Assembly: GCA_015494065.1 (NCBI GenBank)
Contig: WGCA01000031.1
Location: forward strand, 1 to 40,416
Direction of reading: 5' to 3'
DNA: 40,416 nt
Source of the DNA: Thermodesulfobacteriaceae bacterium
GTDB lineage: Bacteria; Desulfobacterota; Thermodesulfobacteria; Thermodesulfobacteriales; Thermodesulfatatoraceae
Below are positions 5,745 through 28,416 of the stretch, in pieces. Under the pieces are notes generated by a model. The model was not told where the DNA came from, searched no databases, and was given only the letters and a program-made list of their open reading frames with translations. A program made the position numbers and the translations under genes. How positions within the stretch are numbered: the stretch's first letter is position 1; each line of letters begins with the position of its first letter.

Positions 5745-7651
<1,907 letters not shown>

Positions 7652-7659
7652 AATCCTAT

Positions 7660-7705
7660 CTTAGTCTTTGAAAAACGCTTAGCAATTCTTTACGAAAAGA
7701 CTAAG
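7660..7705. promoter_or_regulatory. 10-bp inverted repeat in the divergent PfkB / polyferredoxin-AOR promoter
   Basis: CTTAGTCTTT at 7660-7669 is repeated as its exact reverse complement AAAGACTAAG at 7696-7705, 26 bases apart. It lies in the 97-bp gap between two divergent genes, which is where an operator would sit. A plus-strand TTGAAA at 7668-7673 with TACGAA 17 bases later lies between the arms and could be the AOR-operon promoter, though the -10 is poor. The repeat could instead fold as an RNA hairpin. Confidence 0.5.
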
Positions 7706-7748
7706 GGATATTACTTTCTCTTCAGGGCTTTCACGTTGAGGAGGTTCC

Positions 7749-8159
7749 ATGGCCAGACTCAAAGTATTGGACGTTGACCGTTGTGTGGGCTGTCAGCTGT
7801 GCATGTTTGCCTGCCAACGCCGTACCGGGACCGGAGGGCTTTCAGAATGCGCCATTCACGTAAGGTCTCGCGGCGGGCTTTCCCGGGGTCTTACGGTAAT
7901 TGTGTGTCGTGCCTGTGAAGACCCTCCTTGCCTTACGGTATGCCCCACCGGGGCCTTGCTCAAAAGACGGGGCGGCGGGGTGGTCCTCTCACCCAAAAAG
8001 TGTCTGGGTTGCGGCTTTTGTGTACAGGCCTGTCCCCTTCAGGCCATTTTCTGGAACGAAGAGACCCAAAAACCAGTCATTTGTATGCATTGTGGTTATT
8101 GTGCCGCGTATTGCCCTCACCACGTCTTAAAAATAGAGGAGGAACAAAGTGCTGCCTAA
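7749..8159 (+). CDS. Polyferredoxin with four [4Fe-4S] sites, AOR partner subunit
   Basis: A 136-residue electron-transfer protein with four four-cysteine motifs in order: CVGCQLCMFAC (12-22), CRACEDPPCLTVC (about 53-65), CLGCGFCVQAC and CMHCGYCAAYC. All 16 cysteines are present, so four cubane clusters are expected. It has no signal peptide and should be cytoplasmic. The AOR gene starts with a GTG inside its last codons, so the pair is translationally coupled. It probably passes electrons between the AOR and a ferredoxin or another acceptor, like the iron-sulfur subunits of multi-subunit AOR and benzoyl-CoA reductase-type complexes. Family and coupling are seen; the electron route is inferred. 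Confidence 0.9.
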   Translation: MARLKVLDVDRCVGCQLCMFACQRRTGTGGLSECAIHVRSRGGLSRGLTVIVCRACEDPPCLTVCPTGALLKRRGGGVVLSPKKCLGCGFCVQACPLQAIFWNEETQKPVICMHCGYCAAYCPHHVLKIEEEQSAA

Positions 8160-9912
8160 CGATCCCCTAAAACGGGTGCTTTACGTCGACCTGAGTAGCA
8201 AACGCTTCTGGGTGGAAGAACGCCCGGAGCTTTTTGCCGAAAACATCGGAGGGACAGGGGTGGCCAGTAAGCTCCTAGAAGAGGAATGCCCCCCGGATAT
8301 TGACCCTACTGATGCCCGCAACCCCATCATTTTGGCCGTAGGTCCGGCCAACGGGCTCTTTCCCATCGCTTCCAAGACCGTGGCCATGTTCCTTTCCCCG
8401 CACAACAAATTTTTAGGGGAAAGCCACGCCGGGGGCCGCAGCGCCCTGGCCTTAAGGCTGGCTGGTTACGGTGCGGTGGTGATCAGGGGAAAGAGCCAGA
8501 GCCCGGTTTACCTGGTGATCGATCCCCAAGGGGCCAAATTCCGGGACGCCCGCGGGCTCTGGGGGCTCACCGTTTCAGAAACCGGCCGCTTTCTCCGGGA
8601 AAGGGAGGGCGGAAGTGGCCTTAGAAGCATTCTGCGCATCGGTCCTGCGGGGGAAAACGGGTGCACCTTCGCCTGCGTGGTCACGGAAACCTACCGTCAT
8701 TTCGGACGTTTGGGGCTGGGGGCCCTTTTTGGCTACAAAAAACTTAAGGCCATCCTGATCACGGGCAAAAGGGCGCTGCCGGTAACAGACCGCAAGCTTT
8801 TCCGGGAAACCTACGACGAATTGCTGGAAAGGCTCAAAAACACCCCTTCTCTGCGTAAATACCACGATATCGGCACTGCGGTAAACGTGCTCCCTCTTAA
8901 CAAGTTGGGGGCTCTGCCCACCAGGAATTTACAACAGGCCCGCTTTGAGGGAGCCGAAAAGATAAGCGGGGAGTATTTTGCCGAAAGGCTGCTGGGCCGG
9001 AGGCTGGCCTGTGCCCATTGCCCCATGGCCTGCATCCACCTGGCTGCTTTGCGCACGCCCTACGAAGACGAACCTTATTTTTATAAGACCACCTTTATCT
9101 CTTACGATTACGAACCCATTTACGCCAACGGCAGCATGCTGGGGATCGACTCGGCCGAAGGCATCTTAAAAATCCTGGACCTGATTGATAACCTTGGTCT
9201 TGACGCCATGAGCACCGGAGTGGTGCTGGCCTGGGCCACCGAAGCCTTTGAAAAAGGGCTCGTCACCACGGAAGACACCCTTGGCCTCAAGCCCCGGTTT
9301 GGAGACGTGGAGACCTATCTCAAGATGCTCCCCCTGATCGCCCAGCAGCGCAATGATTTTTACGCCGCCCTGGCCAAAGGCGTGGCCTTTGCCTCTGCCC
9401 GGTATGGCGGGGAGGATTTTGCCCTGGCTTTCGGGGGGAACGAGATGCCCGGTTATCACACCGGCTACGGGGCCCACCTTACTTTCCTTACCGGCGCCCG
9501 CCACAGCCACTTAGATTCTGCGGGCTACAGCTATGATCAGAAACTTAAACCCGAAGAAATCTCCCCCACACTCCTCGCCCAAAAGCTTTACGCCGAGGAA
9601 ACCTATCGTCAGATTTTGTCTTCGGCGGTGTGCTGCTTTTTTGGCCGCAGTGTCTATAATTACGAGACCCTGGCCAAGGTCTTTAGAATTTGCGGTTTCG
9701 ATTATGATGAAAAGGATCTACCCCTGGTGGGCGAAAAGATCCTTAAACGCAAATATTTCTTCAAAAAAAAGCGGGGATTCGCCCTCACCCAGCTCAAAAT
9801 ACCCAGAAGGATTTTGGAAACCCTCTCCCCCCACGGTAAGTTAAAAGAAGAGTTTTTACGGGAAGCGCTCCTTTCATACCAAAAACTCCTTGAGGGTGGA
9901 GGAGAAGGATGA
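8149..9912 (+). CDS. Divergent tungsten aldehyde:ferredoxin oxidoreductase
   Basis: AOR-family enzyme of 587 residues, expected to bind a tungsten bis-pterin and one [4Fe-4S] cluster. Cluster ligands are C288-x2-C291-x3-C295 (CAHCPMACIHL) and a cysteine near the end (C495/C496, SSAVCCFFGRS). The pterin-site motif NLGLDAMSTG is present. The usual GGxFGxELKxAG segment is replaced by AGGRSALALRLAGYGAVV, so it is a distant paralogue of the AOR at 10257-12062 and probably has another substrate. The GTG start at 8149 has AGGAGG upstream and overlaps the polyferredoxin gene. The 77-codon gene follows with an overlapping start. Oxidation of an aldehyde, or reduction of an acid, is the family activity; the substrate is unknown. 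Confidence 0.9.
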   Translation: MLPNDPLKRVLYVDLSSKRFWVEERPELFAENIGGTGVASKLLEEECPPDIDPTDARNPIILAVGPANGLFPIASKTVAMFLSPHNKFLGESHAGGRSALALRLAGYGAVVIRGKSQSPVYLVIDPQGAKFRDARGLWGLTVSETGRFLREREGGSGLRSILRIGPAGENGCTFACVVTETYRHFGRLGLGALFGYKKLKAILITGKRALPVTDRKLFRETYDELLERLKNTPSLRKYHDIGTAVNVLPLNKLGALPTRNLQQARFEGAEKISGEYFAERLLGRRLACAHCPMACIHLAALRTPYEDEPYFYKTTFISYDYEPIYANGSMLGIDSAEGILKILDLIDNLGLDAMSTGVVLAWATEAFEKGLVTTEDTLGLKPRFGDVETYLKMLPLIAQQRNDFYAALAKGVAFASARYGGEDFALAFGGNEMPGYHTGYGAHLTFLTGARHSHLDSAGYSYDQKLKPEEISPTLLAQKLYAEETYRQILSSAVCCFFGRSVYNYETLAKVFRICGFDYDEKDLPLVGEKILKRKYFFKKKRGFALTQLKIPRRILETLSPHGKLKEEFLREALLSYQKLLEGGGEG

Positions 9913-10142
9913 AAATGATAATCACCCTATTTTATGAAGAAAGCTGGATCGCTCAGGGGGAGGGCATATACGTTACGGCCCCCTCTTTATTGGAGCTCAA
10001 AGAAAGGCTTGAACATCAACTGGCTGAACAGGGCCTGTTTGAAGAAAATGAAATCGCCCTGGTCTTTGACCGAAGCCGCCTTCCTTCCTGGCTGGTCAAA
10101 GAGATCGCCTACGAGGAGATAACCATCTCAAAGCCTTATTAA
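9909..10142 (+). CDS. Small protein of unknown function in the AOR operon
   Basis: A 77-residue acidic protein, MKMIITLFYEESWIAQGEG followed by an amphipathic stretch (LLELKERLEHQL), with no cysteines and no membrane span. The ATG overlaps the TGA of the AOR gene (ATGA), and GGAGGAG precedes it, so it is made together with the AOR. The N-terminal pattern of two strands and a helix resembles small HicB-like or dodecin-like folds, but I cannot assign a family. A role in AOR assembly, stability or tungstopterin insertion is possible from context only. Confidence 0.7.
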   Translation: MKMIITLFYEESWIAQGEGIYVTAPSLLELKERLEHQLAEQGLFEENEIALVFDRSRLPSWLVKEIAYEEITISKPY

Positions 10143-10180
10143 ACCTCTTTAATCTCCGGTTTGACGGCCAAGATTTCCCA

Positions 10181-10199
10181 GGCGGCCCTTTGGGCCGCC
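10181..10199. terminator. GC-rich hairpin between the two convergent AOR units
   Basis: GGCGGCCC and GGGCCGCC form a perfect 8-bp stem with a TTT loop, 39 bases after the 77-codon gene. No clear T-tract follows on either strand, so termination would rest on the stem alone. It may be part of the repeat remnant that follows. Confidence 0.5.
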
Positions 10200-10218
10200 C
10201 TTGCTGTCCTTGAAATAG

Positions 10219-10247
10219 CTTCGCGCTTACGTCTTGCTCGCAATGAC
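10219..10247 (-). repeat. Remnant of a GTCATTGCGAG-type intergenic repeat
   Basis: Read on the minus strand, the segment begins GTCATTGCGAGCAAGACG and ends in GCGCGAAG. This resembles the dispersed GTCATTGCGAG...GAAGC repeats I know from many bacterial genomes. It lies in the convergent gap between the AOR units. A genome-wide copy count would be needed to confirm it. Confidence 0.5.
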
Positions 10248-10256
10248 TAAGAATCC

Positions 10257-12062
10257 TTAGGCCAGGTCTAGTTCCCGTAGTTTTTCAGGGGTAGGCCTTC
10301 CCTCTTCCCAACCGCGCACCTTATAGTACTCGGGCAACATCTCGGAAAGACGCACCACCTGCCCCTTATTTGGCCCCTCAGGCATGGCTTCGGTTAAGAG
10401 ACGTTTGGGCAGGGTGTCTTCTTTAGGATCAAGCCCGGCTTTTAGATTAAACACCCTTTCTAGATTCCAGATGCGCTCTCCGCAGCGCATCATCTCCTCG
10501 AGGGTATAATCAAAGCCGGTGGCTGCAGCTAGGAGATCCCGGTAATCCTCGGCCGAAAGGGCAAAGGAGGTAAAGAGGCAGATCCCCAGGGAATCTATCA
10601 CGGCAGTAAGGTCCTGGAAGGCCTTGACCCACTGGGCTTTGCCCTCGGTGGAAGAGGGATCAAGCTTTTCGGGAATACCTAGGATTTCTGGGGCGATAAG
10701 ATAGGCCCGCACGTGGCATCCCCCTCTGTTAGAGGTGGCGTAAGCCAGCCCCTGGGCCTGAGCCCCACGGGGGTCGTAAGCGGGAAGTTCCTGTTTTTTG
10801 ACGGTCATGGCTAGCTCCGGGTGCCCGTAAGCCTGGGCCAGCCGGGCTGCCCCTTCGGCCAGCTTATCCCCGAAGCCTTTGCGGTAGGCCACCGCGTGAG
10901 TGTAGTAAACGATGGCCTCTGAGCTTCCGAAATTCAAAGCCGGACCCGGACCAAGGTCCTCTTTCGGGAGATAACCCCGTTCAAAGAGCTCCATGGCGCA
11001 GGCTATGGTTACCCCACAGGAAATGGTGTCTATCCCCAGGCGGTTGCAAAGAAAATTGGCCTCAGTTACGGCGATGAGGTCCTTGACCCCACAACACGCT
11101 CCGTAGGCCCAGCCGCTCTCATACTCCGGCCCTTCTCCCCGGCTTCCCGTAGGCAGCGCCGTTACCCGCGCACACTTAATGGGGCAAGCGTAACAGCCAC
11201 GGTTCTTTTTAAGATAGCCCTTTTCCACCAGGGCCTCTCCACAAACCTCTTCCGTCCCTTCAAAGACCCCGGTCTGGAAATTCCTGGTGGGGTAAAGCCC
11301 GTTTTCGTTAATGATGTTGTCTAACACCTTGGTACCCAGCTTGGGCAGACCCTCTCCCGTCACCGGGTTGGTACGCAAGATTTCAGTCTTTTCCCGCACG
11401 AAATTTTTAAAAACTTCTTCGTCAGGGGCTACAGGTCTTTTGCGTCCCCGCACTATGATCGCCTTCAGTTTTTTGGCCCCCATCACGGCCCCTACCCCGG
11501 AGCGACCCGCCGCCCGGTGTTTGTCGTTGATCACACAGGCAAAGCGCACCAGGTTCTCCCCTGCCGGGCCGATACAGGCTACTTTGGCTTTTTCGTCCCC
11601 AAACTCTTCCCGGAGCTGGTCGGTGACCACGTCTGTCTCAAGCCCCCAGAGTTCCGCAGCCGGCCTAAGCTCAACTGCTTCGTCTTTAATGGCCAGGTAG
11701 ACTGGCTCTTTAGCGGCCCCTTCTAAAATGATCATGTCGTAGCCTGCGGCCTTAAGCTCTGCCCCGAAGTGGCCCCCTGAATTGGAAGAGGCAATAAGGC
11801 CGGTGAGCGGACTCTTACACACGACCATATAGCGCCCACCTGCCGGCGCCGAAGTACCCGTTAAAGGGCCGGTGGCAAAGATAAGTACGTTTTCAGGTGA
11901 AAGCGGTTCGGCCGCCGGATCCATCAATTGGTTTAAATAATAAGAAGCAAGCCCGCGGCCCCCTATATATTTGCGCAAAAGGGCGGGATCAGGCTTTTCT
12001 TTTTTGATTTCACCAGTGGTGAGGTTTACCCGCAAGATACAACCGGCGTAAGTACCCCCCAT
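10257..12062 (-). CDS. aor: Aldehyde:ferredoxin oxidoreductase, canonical type
   Basis: Tungstopterin enzyme of 601 residues that oxidises aldehydes to acids with ferredoxin as acceptor, or the reverse. Family motifs are intact: YIGGRGLASYYL near residue 32, SNSGGHFGAELKAAGYD (about 92-108), GRSGVGAVMGAKKLKAI, the cluster segment CYACPIKCARV (C-x2-C-x3-C), NRLGIDTISCG and the late cysteine in LGICLFTSF. It is the normal length for the family. A well-placed AGGAGG precedes the ATG. It is transcribed toward the other AOR gene. Sixty-four bases upstream lies the pyruvate-kinase-C-like gene on the same strand, which may share its transcript. Confidence 0.95.
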   Translation of the reverse strand: MGGTYAGCILRVNLTTGEIKKEKPDPALLRKYIGGRGLASYYLNQLMDPAAEPLSPENVLIFATGPLTGTSAPAGGRYMVVCKSPLTGLIASSNSGGHFGAELKAAGYDMIILEGAAKEPVYLAIKDEAVELRPAAELWGLETDVVTDQLREEFGDEKAKVACIGPAGENLVRFACVINDKHRAAGRSGVGAVMGAKKLKAIIVRGRKRPVAPDEEVFKNFVREKTEILRTNPVTGEGLPKLGTKVLDNIINENGLYPTRNFQTGVFEGTEEVCGEALVEKGYLKKNRGCYACPIKCARVTALPTGSRGEGPEYESGWAYGACCGVKDLIAVTEANFLCNRLGIDTISCGVTIACAMELFERGYLPKEDLGPGPALNFGSSEAIVYYTHAVAYRKGFGDKLAEGAARLAQAYGHPELAMTVKKQELPAYDPRGAQAQGLAYATSNRGGCHVRAYLIAPEILGIPEKLDPSSTEGKAQWVKAFQDLTAVIDSLGICLFTSFALSAEDYRDLLAAATGFDYTLEEMMRCGERIWNLERVFNLKAGLDPKEDTLPKRLLTEAMPEGPNKGQVVRLSEMLPEYYKVRGWEEGRPTPEKLRELDLA

Positions 12063-12126
12063 AGGTTCCTCCTTCTGAAACTTTTTGGAAAGATTAGCAA
12101 AATAGCCCAGGGAGGGAAAGCAAAAA

Positions 12127-12681
12127 CTACCAATCCCAGGGTTTGGCCAATATTTCCCGCACCTTAAGGCTGAAGAGTTTGTTAGAGGGCATGGCCTTGA
12201 TGATGGCTACGGTATCAGCGCCCCGGGCCGTACCAGCCACCGCGATCACGTCTTCGGGAGGGATAAGACCCGCGTCACAGGCCATAAGGACGATTTCTAC
12301 ACAGACTTTAATCCCCTGCCCAAAAAGCCTTAAAGTGTTGGCAATCAGGTCCTGCTGGGAATAGTGTTGAAGTTCACGAATAGCCGTCCCGATATTGCGG
12401 AAGACCATGGTACCGGTATAAACCTTGGCCCCCCGGCTTTCCAATGCTTGGCGGCGTTCAGGGGTGAGCTCAAGTTTCCCCGGCTCACGAAAACCCACGT
12501 TATGGGTCACAATTACGAGATTTACTTCCTCTTTTTCAAAGATATCGCAGGCCTTAAGGCCTGTGTCCCCAAAAGTAGAGGCCACTACCACGTGTTTGAG
12601 GCCCCGCTTTTTATAGGCCTCGTAAGCCACCTTAAGAGCTGCCTCGGTATTTTGTTTGCCCGCCTTTTCAAAAAGGACCAT
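12127..12681 (-). CDS. Orphan pyruvate kinase C-terminal (alpha/beta) domain protein
   Basis: A free-standing 184-residue protein resembling the C-terminal allosteric domain of pyruvate kinase, without the catalytic barrel. It opens with KAGKQNTEAALKVAYEAYKKRG and continues VVVASTFGDTGLKAC and LVIVTHNVGFREPG; later it has AGTARGADTVAIIKAM. Such stand-alone proteins occur in anaerobes and archaea and have no settled function; they cannot have kinase activity. The motifs suggest binding of a small phosphorylated or nucleotide ligand. It sits upstream of the canonical AOR on the same strand, so a link to that pathway is plausible but only inferred. GTG or ATG choice at the start is not in doubt (ATG at 12681). 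Confidence 0.8.
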   Translation of the reverse strand: MVLFEKAGKQNTEAALKVAYEAYKKRGLKHVVVASTFGDTGLKACDIFEKEEVNLVIVTHNVGFREPGKLELTPERRQALESRGAKVYTGTMVFRNIGTAIRELQHYSQQDLIANTLRLFGQGIKVCVEIVLMACDAGLIPPEDVIAVAGTARGADTVAIIKAMPSNKLFSLKVREILAKPWDW

Positions 12682-12695
12682 CTTGGGCTTCCCTT

Positions 12696-12995
12696 CTAGT
12701 GCATTTTTTTGGGTGCTGAAATTATCTGGTCATAGAGTTTATAATAGGGGATGATGGATAAAATCAAGAGCAAATCCCCTACGATCTTGAAGCCCAATAG
12801 ATAATTTCCGATCTGGACCTTCCAGTACCCATCGGTATTGCCCCTTAAGGGGCGGGCGTAGGAAAAAGGCTTTTTGGCCAGTTTCTCGTTTAGAAAATGG
12901 AGCAGGGCGTCTTTAACCGTGGGTTTGAGGCTGGGCAGGTCTTGCGTCAGGACCTTTTCGTGAAATTTTAAACGGAATTTCTTTTCTTCTCCCAT
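12696..12995 (-). CDS. RelE/ParE-type toxin
   Basis: A 99-residue basic protein with the RelE-like fold pattern: an N-terminal strand and helix (FRLKFHEKVLTQDLPSLK), then PLRGNTDGYWKVQIGNYLLGFKI and LLLILSIIPYYKLYDQI. The core RelE segment, K/R-L-x-G ... W-x-x-x-x-G-x-Y ... I, is clear. RelE toxins cleave mRNA in the ribosome; ParE types poison gyrase, and sequence alone does not settle which this is. The start lies 28 bases inside the antitoxin gene, the usual layout of a type II pair. Confidence 0.8.
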   Translation of the reverse strand: MGEEKKFRLKFHEKVLTQDLPSLKPTVKDALLHFLNEKLAKKPFSYARPLRGNTDGYWKVQIGNYLLGFKIVGDLLLILSIIPYYKLYDQIISAPKKMH

Positions 12996-13207
12996 GCTAC
13001 CTTTATCTTTGTCCCTCCTTCCTGTCCCTCTTCGACATTTTTGAGGTGTTTTGCCAAAAGGAGATCTTCTTCAGTCTCAAGGGCTTCCTTGATCAGTTTA
13101 CACACCATGGAGGACATAGAAGTGTTTTTGAGCTTGGCGAGCAATTTGATTCTCTCGTAAAGCTCCTGGTCCAGGACCACACAAAGGCGAGGATGTTTGG
13201 TGGGCAT
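12968..13207 (-). CDS. Ribbon-helix-helix antitoxin
   Basis: A 79-residue protein whose N-terminus reads PRLCVVLDQELYERIKLLAKLKNTSMSSMVCKLIKEAL, a ribbon-helix-helix DNA-binding domain (residues about 6-45). The acidic, then basic C-terminal tail should wrap the toxin. GGAGGG precedes the ATG. The gene is first in the pair and overlaps the toxin gene by 28 bases. As in other such pairs it is expected to repress its own near-consensus promoter at 13255-13283. Confidence 0.82.
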   Translation of the reverse strand: MPTKHPRLCVVLDQELYERIKLLAKLKNTSMSSMVCKLIKEALETEEDLLLAKHLKNVEEGQEGGTKIKVAWEKKRNSV

Positions 13208-16478: not shown

Positions 16479-18690
<2,212 letters not shown>

Positions 18691-26862: not shown

Positions 26863-28416
26863 ATGGCGACCAAACCCGTAGTACAGGAATTTCTACTTTC
26901 CCTGTCCCCTCCCTCCCTTGACGACCAGCGGGCGGATGAAGCCCGTCTGCGCCAGGCGTTAACAGAGAAATTGGAAGGCCAGGAACCCCGTATCACTCTT
27001 TCGGTCTTGAGAAAACTCCCCACCCTTTTGCGCGACTCAAAATTCAAAATAAAGGCCCGGGTGGCTTACGACGGCAAGGATTTCGTAGTATTTGACGTCC
27101 TCCCTCCCCAGGACAAGACACCCCTTTTGGGCCTTGGGGTGGACTTGGGGAGCACCGGGGTGGTCCTTTATCTTTATGACTTTTTGGAAGAAAAAACCAT
27201 CAGGAAACGTTCCTTCAAAAACCCCCAGATTCCTTTCGGGGAGGACATCTTAAACCGCCTGCACTACGCCGACCGCCCGCAAAGGCGCAAAGAGATCCAT
27301 GAAGTCACTTTAAAAGCGCTGAGAGAAGAGATCAGAAAGATCCTTTCTGACTTTCCGGAGGAGGCCCTGGCCTACGTGGCCCTTTGCGGCAACACCACCA
27401 TGAGCCACTTCTTCCTAAATCTTGAGACCCGCTACCTTTACCGGGAACCTTACATCCCGGCAGCAAGCTGGATCGACACTTTAAAGTTGAAAGAGTTTGC
27501 TCTCCCTGGTCACGAAGAGGGGTTGGTCTTCGTCTTTCCCAACCGGGGGAGTTACTTCGGCGGAGACCTCCTGGCCGGCATCCTGGCCGCAGGTCTTCAC
27601 CGCCGCGAGGAAATAAGTATCCTCATAGACGTGGGGACCAACGCGGAAGTGGTGTTGGGAAACAAAGAATTTCTGCTCGCCACCGCCGGGGCTGCCGGCC
27701 CGGCTCTAGAAGGGGGTATCCTGGCCTGCGGGATGCAAGCCGCCCCCGGGGCCATCGAAAGGGTAAGGATTGACCCGGAGACTTTAAATATAGAACTCAA
27801 AACCATAGATGACGAAAAACCGCGCGGGCTTTGCGGCTCAGGGGTGATTGACCTCCTGGCTCAGATGTTTCTGGCCGGCCTTATTGATCAGCGAGGAAAA
27901 TTTCTTCCAGAGAGATGGCCGGAAAGGTTTTGTACCATAAACGGGGAGCTCGCCTTTATCCTGGTGCCTGCCGAAGAATCAGCCACGGGAAAGCCCATTT
28001 ACGTCACCCAGGGGGAAGTAAAAAGTATTATCCGTTCCAAAGGGGCCATGTACACCATCTTGACGGTCCTCTGCCAGAGCATAGGCCTTGATTTCAAAGA
28101 CATCCACCGCTTTTACATCGCGGGAAGCTTCGGCAATTATATTGACCCCGAAATGGCCGTCTTAATCGGTATGTTACCAGACGTACCCCTTGAGCGTTTC
28201 GTCCCCTTGGGAAACGCCGCCGGTAAGGGTACGATAGAATTTTTAAAAAACCGGGAGGCTTTCTCTGAACTGAAACAAATTCTGGCCAACCTTACCTATC
28301 TTGAGATGAACGTGCGCCCCGAGTTTATGCAACTCCTAACGGGAGCCCTTTTTCTCCCTCACACGGACCTTTCCCTCTTCCCAAACGTCGCACGCAAGGT
28401 CAAGCCCTTAAAATAG
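26863..28416 (+). CDS. ASKHA-fold protein of the corrinoid-activator (RACo/DUF4445) type lacking the ferredoxin domain
   Basis: RACo-type proteins use ATP to reduce the cobalamin of corrinoid iron-sulfur proteins. This 517-residue protein has the linker (LRKLPTLLRDSKFKIKARV, about 46-64) and the ASKHA domains with GLGVDLGSTGVVLYLYDF, NPQIPFGEDILNRLHYA, LCGNTTMSHFFL and ILIDVGTNAEVVLG. The C-terminal FYIAGSFGNYIDPEMAVLIGMLPDV fits. The N-terminal [2Fe-2S] domain of about 90 residues is absent. An in-frame TAG lies just before the ATG, so no longer start exists. It may rely on a separate ferredoxin. Family is clear; the corrinoid target is unknown. It starts 40 bases after archease with a weak ribosome-binding site. 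Confidence 0.85.
   Translation: MATKPVVQEFLLSLSPPSLDDQRADEARLRQALTEKLEGQEPRITLSVLRKLPTLLRDSKFKIKARVAYDGKDFVVFDVLPPQDKTPLLGLGVDLGSTGVVLYLYDFLEEKTIRKRSFKNPQIPFGEDILNRLHYADRPQRRKEIHEVTLKALREEIRKILSDFPEEALAYVALCGNTTMSHFFLNLETRYLYREPYIPAASWIDTLKLKEFALPGHEEGLVFVFPNRGSYFGGDLLAGILAAGLHRREEISILIDVGTNAEVVLGNKEFLLATAGAAGPALEGGILACGMQAAPGAIERVRIDPETLNIELKTIDDEKPRGLCGSGVIDLLAQMFLAGLIDQRGKFLPERWPERFCTINGELAFILVPAEESATGKPIYVTQGEVKSIIRSKGAMYTILTVLCQSIGLDFKDIHRFYIAGSFGNYIDPEMAVLIGMLPDVPLERFVPLGNAAGKGTIEFLKNREAFSELKQILANLTYLEMNVRPEFMQLLTGALFLPHTDLSLFPNVARKVKPLK

Follow-up and report, generated by a model that had tools for sequence, protein, structure and literature searches.

A 40,416-nt stretch of DNA from a Thermodesulfobacteriaceae bacterium (the whole of contig WGCA01000031.1 of assembly GCA_015494065.1), referred to here in its full length as the window, contains three co-directional, overlapping open reading frames (ORFs) on the + strand that appear to encode a two-subunit tungsten oxidoreductase (WOR) and a small companion protein. 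The first gene, worS (7749..8159), encodes a four-cluster polyferredoxin small subunit of 136 aa. The second, worL (8149..9912), begins with a GTG codon that overlaps worS and encodes the 587-aa large subunit. The third (9909..10142) encodes a 77-aa DUF5395 protein and has its start codon within the end of worL, in an ATGA overlap. The position, direction and overlap of these genes agree with a preliminary description of the window that had been made without database searches. A canonical AOR gene (10257..12062, - strand), whose product is 60.8% identical to PfAOR, lies outside the three-gene unit in convergent orientation and is considered here as context only. The source 2.03-Mb draft genome gave only two AFOR_N matches, both on the window contig. 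The same three-gene order, with a convergent canonical AOR, recurs in four further genomes of the genus, and differences among the five 77-aa genes concentrate at third codon positions; for both reasons we consider the unit to be more than a chance arrangement. It is a real three-gene unit that differs from the adjacent canonical AOR, with two genes of known architecture and a third that is a genus-level addition. WorS and WorL together (WorSL) probably constitute a Class II tungsten oxidoreductase from an apparently uncharacterized branch. A search of positions 7600-12300 with Rfam at gathering thresholds matched no RNA element and, in the follow-up of the three-gene unit, the best PHROGs match, at E 0.025, was unconvincing and the plasmid set gave none.

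Residues, phylogeny and distribution of WorS and WorL

WorS contains 17 cysteines, of which 16 form four ferredoxin-type groups of four, as the preliminary description had counted, and the remaining one is C34. It gave Fer4 matches in Pfam, and among its relatives of solved structure are the small subunits of AmWOR1 (9mqx_E) and WOR5 (6x6u_B, E 1.4e-9). WorL matched both AFOR domains of Pfam above cut-off (216 and 230 bits) and shows 31-33% identity with both PfAOR and the neighboring canonical AOR. The best solved-structure chain for WorL was PfAOR (242-247 bits), WOR5 scored about 144-147 bits, and no solved structure comes near the WorL branch. Against the archaeal GAPOR model NF040818 WorL scored 43 bits, far below the cut-off of 1300. 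When aligned to PfAOR, WorL was found to retain T243, E322, Y436, H454 and R187, together with the cluster cysteines C288, C291, C295 and C496. The GGxFGxELKxAG segment is missing from WorL, as previously described, and the corresponding stretch reads GESHAGGRSALALRLAGYG. The absence is not peculiar to this enzyme, however, as PfFOR and HvWOR83 also lack GGxFGxELK in the AOR-family alignment; the idea that its loss marks an odd enzyme was therefore rejected.

Residue conservation was assessed by aligning 96 AOR-family sequences, including 37 relatives of WorL (25 branch members and 12 members of the nearest outgroup). Two doubtful ORFs of locus L193 were taken out before the residue and conservation alignments, and the second AOR paralog of locus L187 was excluded from the branch list. 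The second-shell residues considered were Thr243, Glu313, Tyr427 and His448 of PfAOR, as named in passages of an earlier study (PMC12096430), according to which the GOR clade keeps all four, whereas WOR5 has lost the Thr, carries His for Tyr and has Tyr199 for Arg. These four residues and the four cluster cysteines are retained in all 25 branch members and in all 12 outgroup members. The counterpart of PfAOR Arg186 is likewise retained in 37/37 relatives, and that of Asn93 is His in the same 37. At 27 positions, no fewer than 36 of the 37 relatives share a residue that is present in less than 12% of the 59 other sequences. These positions include R97, H184, F185, H297, R302, Y319, H452 and R487, and several of the 27 adjoin catalytic residues along the sequence, a proximity that is not one of structural distance.

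Two phylogenetic trees were built, one quickly from 97 rows and the other more carefully, under a mixture model, from 43 rows, and they agreed on the main split. In the mixture-model tree, WorL and its nearest outgroup (12 and 5 rows, respectively) formed one side of a branch with 100/98 support. The canonical AOR of the window fell with PfAOR within the AOR group (99/97), to the exclusion of WorL, and the GAPOR-like, FOR and BamB groups were each supported at 100/100. The claim that WorL is distinct from its canonical neighbor is thus borne out. As to its placement among known enzymes, which the preliminary description had proposed as a check, the trees separate WorL from the AOR, FOR, GAPOR-like, WOR83 and BamB anchors; WOR5, WOR4 and CbGOR were in neither tree. 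Within the WorL branch, rows from the window's phylum (the same-phylum genome set) and from Thermoproteota (the label given here to the phylum set of G395, a Desulfurococcales archaeon) were intermixed. The border between the WorL clade and the nearest outgroup is not firm, with outgroup row L251 standing among clade rows at weak support. In the quick tree, one of the L193 ORFs, a poor row filled to 12%, was placed near the root and the other was left out, and the mixture-model tree included neither.

A genome search with WorL (P0001) at a threshold of E <= 1e-90 detected matches in 62 of the 395 genomes searched from the window's phylum, 19 of which (own genome included) showed at least 54% identity, and in 65 of 250 Thermoproteota genomes, or 63 after G430 and G537 (35-37% identity) were dropped. 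Named relatives were found in Thermodesulfatator, Thermosulfurimonas and another Thermodesulfobacteriota metagenome-assembled genome (MAG). The nearest relative, with 99% identity, is encoded in a MAG labeled Thermodesulfatator atlanticus, and the WorL of Thermosulfurimonas dismutans is 84% identical to that of the window. In the Thermoproteota genomes G433, G417, G426 and G623, the WorL homolog contains one in-frame TGA or TAG each. Gene order was read at 103 loci, of which the window's phylum contributed 62 (one named MAG and 61 of the matching genomes, G116 with its partial gene being left out) and the 65 Thermoproteota genomes 41, the context of the other 24 not being read. A search of genome contigs for related loci, run with narrow patterns, gave only five. 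At 102 of the 103 loci, worL is immediately preceded by worS; in the remaining locus, worL is truncated by the end of the contig. A MoaE-like gene stands third, after worL, in loci L089, L094, L100 and L105 of the 40-41% group (by Pfam in L094 only).

The 77-residue DUF5395 protein

The product of the third gene is small and acidic, as first described, with 14 D/E against 7 K/R. It had been thought to contain no known motif, but it matches Pfam DUF5395 (PF17373) as a divergent member, with 37.5 bits against a gathering cut-off of 25. A profile built from ten DUF5395 proteins detected the family at 4 of the 103 WorL loci, all of them in the window's genus, the proteins of these four loci being among the ten. 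The gene is missing from the other 99, that of Thermosulfurimonas dismutans among them, which argues against a three-part complex; it therefore does not encode an obligate subunit of the enzyme type. Conservation of gene order, a further check proposed in the preliminary description, accordingly holds for worS and worL and fails for the third gene. The dedicated complex that had been envisaged keeps its AOR-polyferredoxin pair, on a branch of its own, and loses its third part. That description had also named the outcome that would speak against it, namely an AOR inside a known substrate clade with the three genes usually apart, and this came about only in part: WorL lies outside the testable substrate clades, worS and worL almost always occur together, and the 77-aa gene is absent from most loci.

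A profile of the WOR-linked form detected the 77-aa gene in five of eight genomes of the genus, own included, a count of this gene alone and not of WorSL. It was absent from G647, G649 and G650 (83-96% complete), and the same profile found no WOR-linked form in the two genomes searched from other genera of this family. The other four genomes with the gene all have it overlapping or touching the end of worL. The 77-aa protein is 37-66% identical to its relatives in the four congeners, compared with 73-83% for WorL. For the closest pair of genes, nonsynonymous divergence (dN) was 0.07 and synonymous divergence (dS) was 1.06, and dS was not computable for seven of the ten pairs. An AlphaFold2 model of the protein, produced from a two-row alignment, was a poor prediction, with a mean pLDDT of 54.8. 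Pfam gave no ThiS, MoaD or MoaE match for it, and the five homologs end in KPY, LLK, ELV, ELV and LTS, that is, with no C-terminal GG, a tail that we take to be a criterion for WorX (ThiS-like). A WorX/MoaD-like identity was rejected, since both the ThiS/MoaD match and the GG tail are missing.

Of 297 genomes searched from the window's phylum, 7 contain DUF5395, among them the window genome with a single match, and it occurs in none of the 250 Thermoproteota genomes, where control searches were silent as well. The family adjoins a PF03601 membrane protein in three Pfam-tested loci, and PF03601-like neighbors were recognized by eye in L015, L019, L371 and L372; we take PF03601 proteins to be putative sulfate/sulfonate exporters. 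Both WOR-linked and PF03601-linked copies are present in G180, G345 and G227. In L014 (7729-9807), L015 (832-2908), L371 and L372, genes for a 67-aa one-span protein, DUF5395 and the PF03601 protein follow one another with almost no gaps, an arrangement in genus mates that is possibly a DUF5395-transporter unit.

In this genus, the 77-aa protein could in principle be a structural subunit in its own right, the third member of a WorLS-DUF5395 complex. In five genomes the start of its gene abuts or overlaps the end of worL, and the excess of differences at third codon positions is in keeping with such a role. We nevertheless find this doubtful, given a gene that is absent from nearly all WorL loci, a product that diverges faster than WorL and a family that elsewhere adjoins a membrane protein. 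The protein is best read as a genus-level accessory and not as a core or obligate subunit, because of its fast divergence, its patchy presence and the occurrence of its family elsewhere beside one larger partner. A literature search returned no paper naming DUF5395 or PF17373, and the 77-aa protein offers this family a concrete partner for testing.

Enzyme class and candidate substrates

According to passages of a published survey (PMC13328260), the Class II layout, in which WorL and WorS lie side by side, is found in 40 of 92 clades and in 16% of WORs. WorSL conforms to it in that AFOR_N and AFOR_C are both present in WorL, a four-cluster WorS is adjacent, and neither WorN, which carries flavin adenine dinucleotide (FAD), nor a WorABC module was seen among the flanking genes of the window. 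In general, none of the genes listed on either side of the unit in the window encodes an FAD or bifurcating subunit. It is on the basis of these Pfam domains, the near-universal pairing, the kept residues, the branch support, the WorS relatives, the published definition and the lack of an FAD or bifurcating gene beside the unit that we assign WorSL to Class II. Judging by homology and layout, WorL would bind a bis-pterin tungsten cofactor and one [4Fe-4S] cluster. An aldehyde may be oxidized at the tungstopterin, and its electrons could be relayed first by the [4Fe-4S] cluster of WorL and then by the four WorS clusters to a soluble ferredoxin; the two subunits presumably form a complex. The DUF5395 protein might act as an assembly, stability, docking or regulatory factor rather than as a catalytic subunit.

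Several points weigh against this assignment. The tungsten and cluster motifs had been described as kept, which is true of the second-shell residues and the cluster cysteines but not of the DxxGxC aspartate (PfAOR D489), which is replaced by Ser, Thr, Asn or Ala in all 37 relatives. A literature search found no biochemical work on any of the branch members, and the metal and the electron carrier are beyond what sequence can tell. Lastly, the overlap of the 77-aa gene with worL, kept in five genomes, makes a genus-only third subunit conceivable.

That WorSL has a substrate of its own is plausible. The proposal that survives best, a serious possibility although short of probable, is that it acts on a broad range of aldehydes as an aldehyde:ferredoxin oxidoreductase, removing or recycling them in parallel with the adjacent canonical AOR. 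Second-shell residues of aldehyde-oxidizing WORs are kept in all 37 relatives, the neighbors of the pair vary within the window's phylum, and most characterized WORs oxidize aldehydes, as stated in passages of the survey cited above (PMC13328260). On the other hand, a canonical AOR already adjoins the unit, and the 27 branch-specific positions, with several near catalytic residues in sequence, suggest a distinct pocket.

Glyceraldehyde-3-phosphate (GAP) is the leading guess for a single substrate, and a tentative one. The branch would in this case be a ferredoxin-linked GAP oxidoreductase (GOR-like) that converts GAP to 3-phosphoglycerate and replaces GAPOR in many Thermoproteota, its bacterial members acting likewise, which we regard as unlikely. 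In 3 of the 41 archaeal loci (L154, L158 and L160), worL is followed by an aldolase gene, starting about 80-110 bases past it, and then by a PfkB-kinase gene. The one aldolase tested had archaeal class I fructose-bisphosphate (FBP) aldolase as its best family, with 370 bits (below the model cut-off of 430), and the class I FBP aldolase 1ojx as its best solved match, and the one kinase tested belongs to the PfkB family, with no firm subfamily. Another 7 of the 41 loci have GH57 and weakly GalT-like genes downstream (one of each tested). These ten sugar-context loci, however, all fall within a single group when placed on the aEF-2 tree. Among the 250 genomes, 63 carry the WorL branch and 46 carry GAPOR-like genes (E <= 1e-60); none carries both, where 11.6 would be expected, but all GAPOR-like hits score below the NCBIfam cut-off of 1300 bits. 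The hypergeometric probability of this exclusion, 3e-7, was downgraded because it needs only four changes on the aEF-2 marker tree, and it thus amounts to a handful of events. That tree held 110 genomes (52 with WorL, 38 with GAPOR-like genes and 20 with neither), and 19 of the 109 genomes labeled as having WorL or GAPOR-like genes were left off it, having no aEF-2 place.

The four second-shell residues kept in all 37 relatives agree with the GOR clade, yet they are shared with AORs and so are not diagnostic. An anionic substrate would be consistent with the extra conserved residues R97, R163, H184, H297, R302, H452 and R487. For Desulfurococcus amylolyticus, the consecutive tags Desfe_0717 and Desfe_0718 are given to phosphofructokinase and FBP aldolase, and GAPOR was assigned to Desfe_0557, in passages that do not place WorSL (PMC6182646). 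Other observations speak against GAP: window-phylum loci have no recurrent sugar genes, T. dismutans is stated to have GAPDH and PGK genes and to be incapable of sugar fermentation (PMC4911364), and CbGOR was outside the comparison. If GAP were the substrate, genomes that lack GAPOR-like genes would owe a step of glycolysis to WorSL. In its fullest form the proposal makes WorSL a further independent lineage of ferredoxin-dependent GAP oxidoreductases that replaces GAPOR in part of the Thermoproteota, is common to archaea and thermophilic sulfur bacteria, and gained a DUF5395 partner in this genus; this is slightly less likely again, and it would give the DUF5395 family an enzyme context.

An aliphatic sulfonate oxidoreductase like PfWOR5/ASOR would fit a sulfur-metabolizing host, the identical two-subunit layout, the resemblance of WorS to the WOR5 small subunit and the presumed exporters beside DUF5395 elsewhere, but it is very improbable and was rejected, given that WorL scores far lower against WOR5 than against PfAOR and that the Thr, Tyr and Arg (equated with PfAOR R186, an inferred equivalence, as WOR5 is not in the alignment) are kept in 37/37 relatives.

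Flanking genes and comparison with known systems

A PfkB-family protein (Pfam) is encoded upstream of the unit at 6815-7651 of the window, and no such neighbor is found at the corresponding place in L012, L013 and L023, which counts against GAP. The gene immediately preceding that of the canonical AOR, likewise on the - strand, encodes a stand-alone pyruvate-kinase C-terminal-like (PK_C) protein (12127-12681; PF02887, 28.3 bits against a cut-off of 28). At 12696-13207 (- strand), a ribbon-helix-helix protein (PF07878) adjoins a 99-aa ORF without a Pfam match, and the two look like a toxin-antitoxin pair. A large, catalase-peroxidase-like heme peroxidase (16537-18690, + strand; PF00141 in two stretches) is present although the host is presumed to be an anaerobe. 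Farther along is a RACo-type protein (26863-28416, + strand; PF14574, PF17651 and PF17650), of a family that we take to be activators of corrinoid proteins. An AIR-carboxylase-like protein (2108-2869, - strand; PF00731) is presumably comparable, by its size, to LarB of nickel-pincer cofactor synthesis.

Compared with PfAOR and the canonical AOR at 10257-12062, WorL has in common the AFOR fold domains, the cluster cysteines and the T/E/Y/H second shell. It differs from them in its low identity, its place across a 100-support branch, its WorS partner and the lack of both GGxFGxELK and the DxxGxC Asp. Class III and IV WORs (AaAOR and AmWOR1) likewise have a polyferredoxin small subunit, as the 9mqx_E match shows, but the unit in the window has no adjoining FAD subunit or WorABC module gene and belongs to a different branch. 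The 77-aa gene is like the WorX (ThiS-like) and MoaE-like genes in being a small extra gene beside a WOR, and unlike them in its lack of ThiS, MoaD or MoaE similarity and of a GG tail. It passes the same family cut-off as the DUF5395 proteins beside PF03601, but is only 19-26% identical to them and has a shortened C-terminal QWxRQYxQHYF stretch.

The closest parallel in layout is with the Class II enzymes PfASOR/WOR5 (clade 40) and CbGOR (clade 20), in which, according to passages of the survey (PMC13328260), a large W subunit and a four-cluster small subunit lie side by side, as they do here. WorL of the window is remote from WOR5 in score and in second shell, and CbGOR was compared by layout alone. 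In the window's genus, the DUF5395 gene is an addition to the Class II arrangement. Taken as a whole, the architecture of the pair is already published as that of a Class II WOR; it belongs here to an apparently uncharacterized branch, common in the sampled archaeal phylum (63/250 genomes), present also in sulfur bacteria and without a near solved structure, and DUF5395 is a genus-level addition to it.

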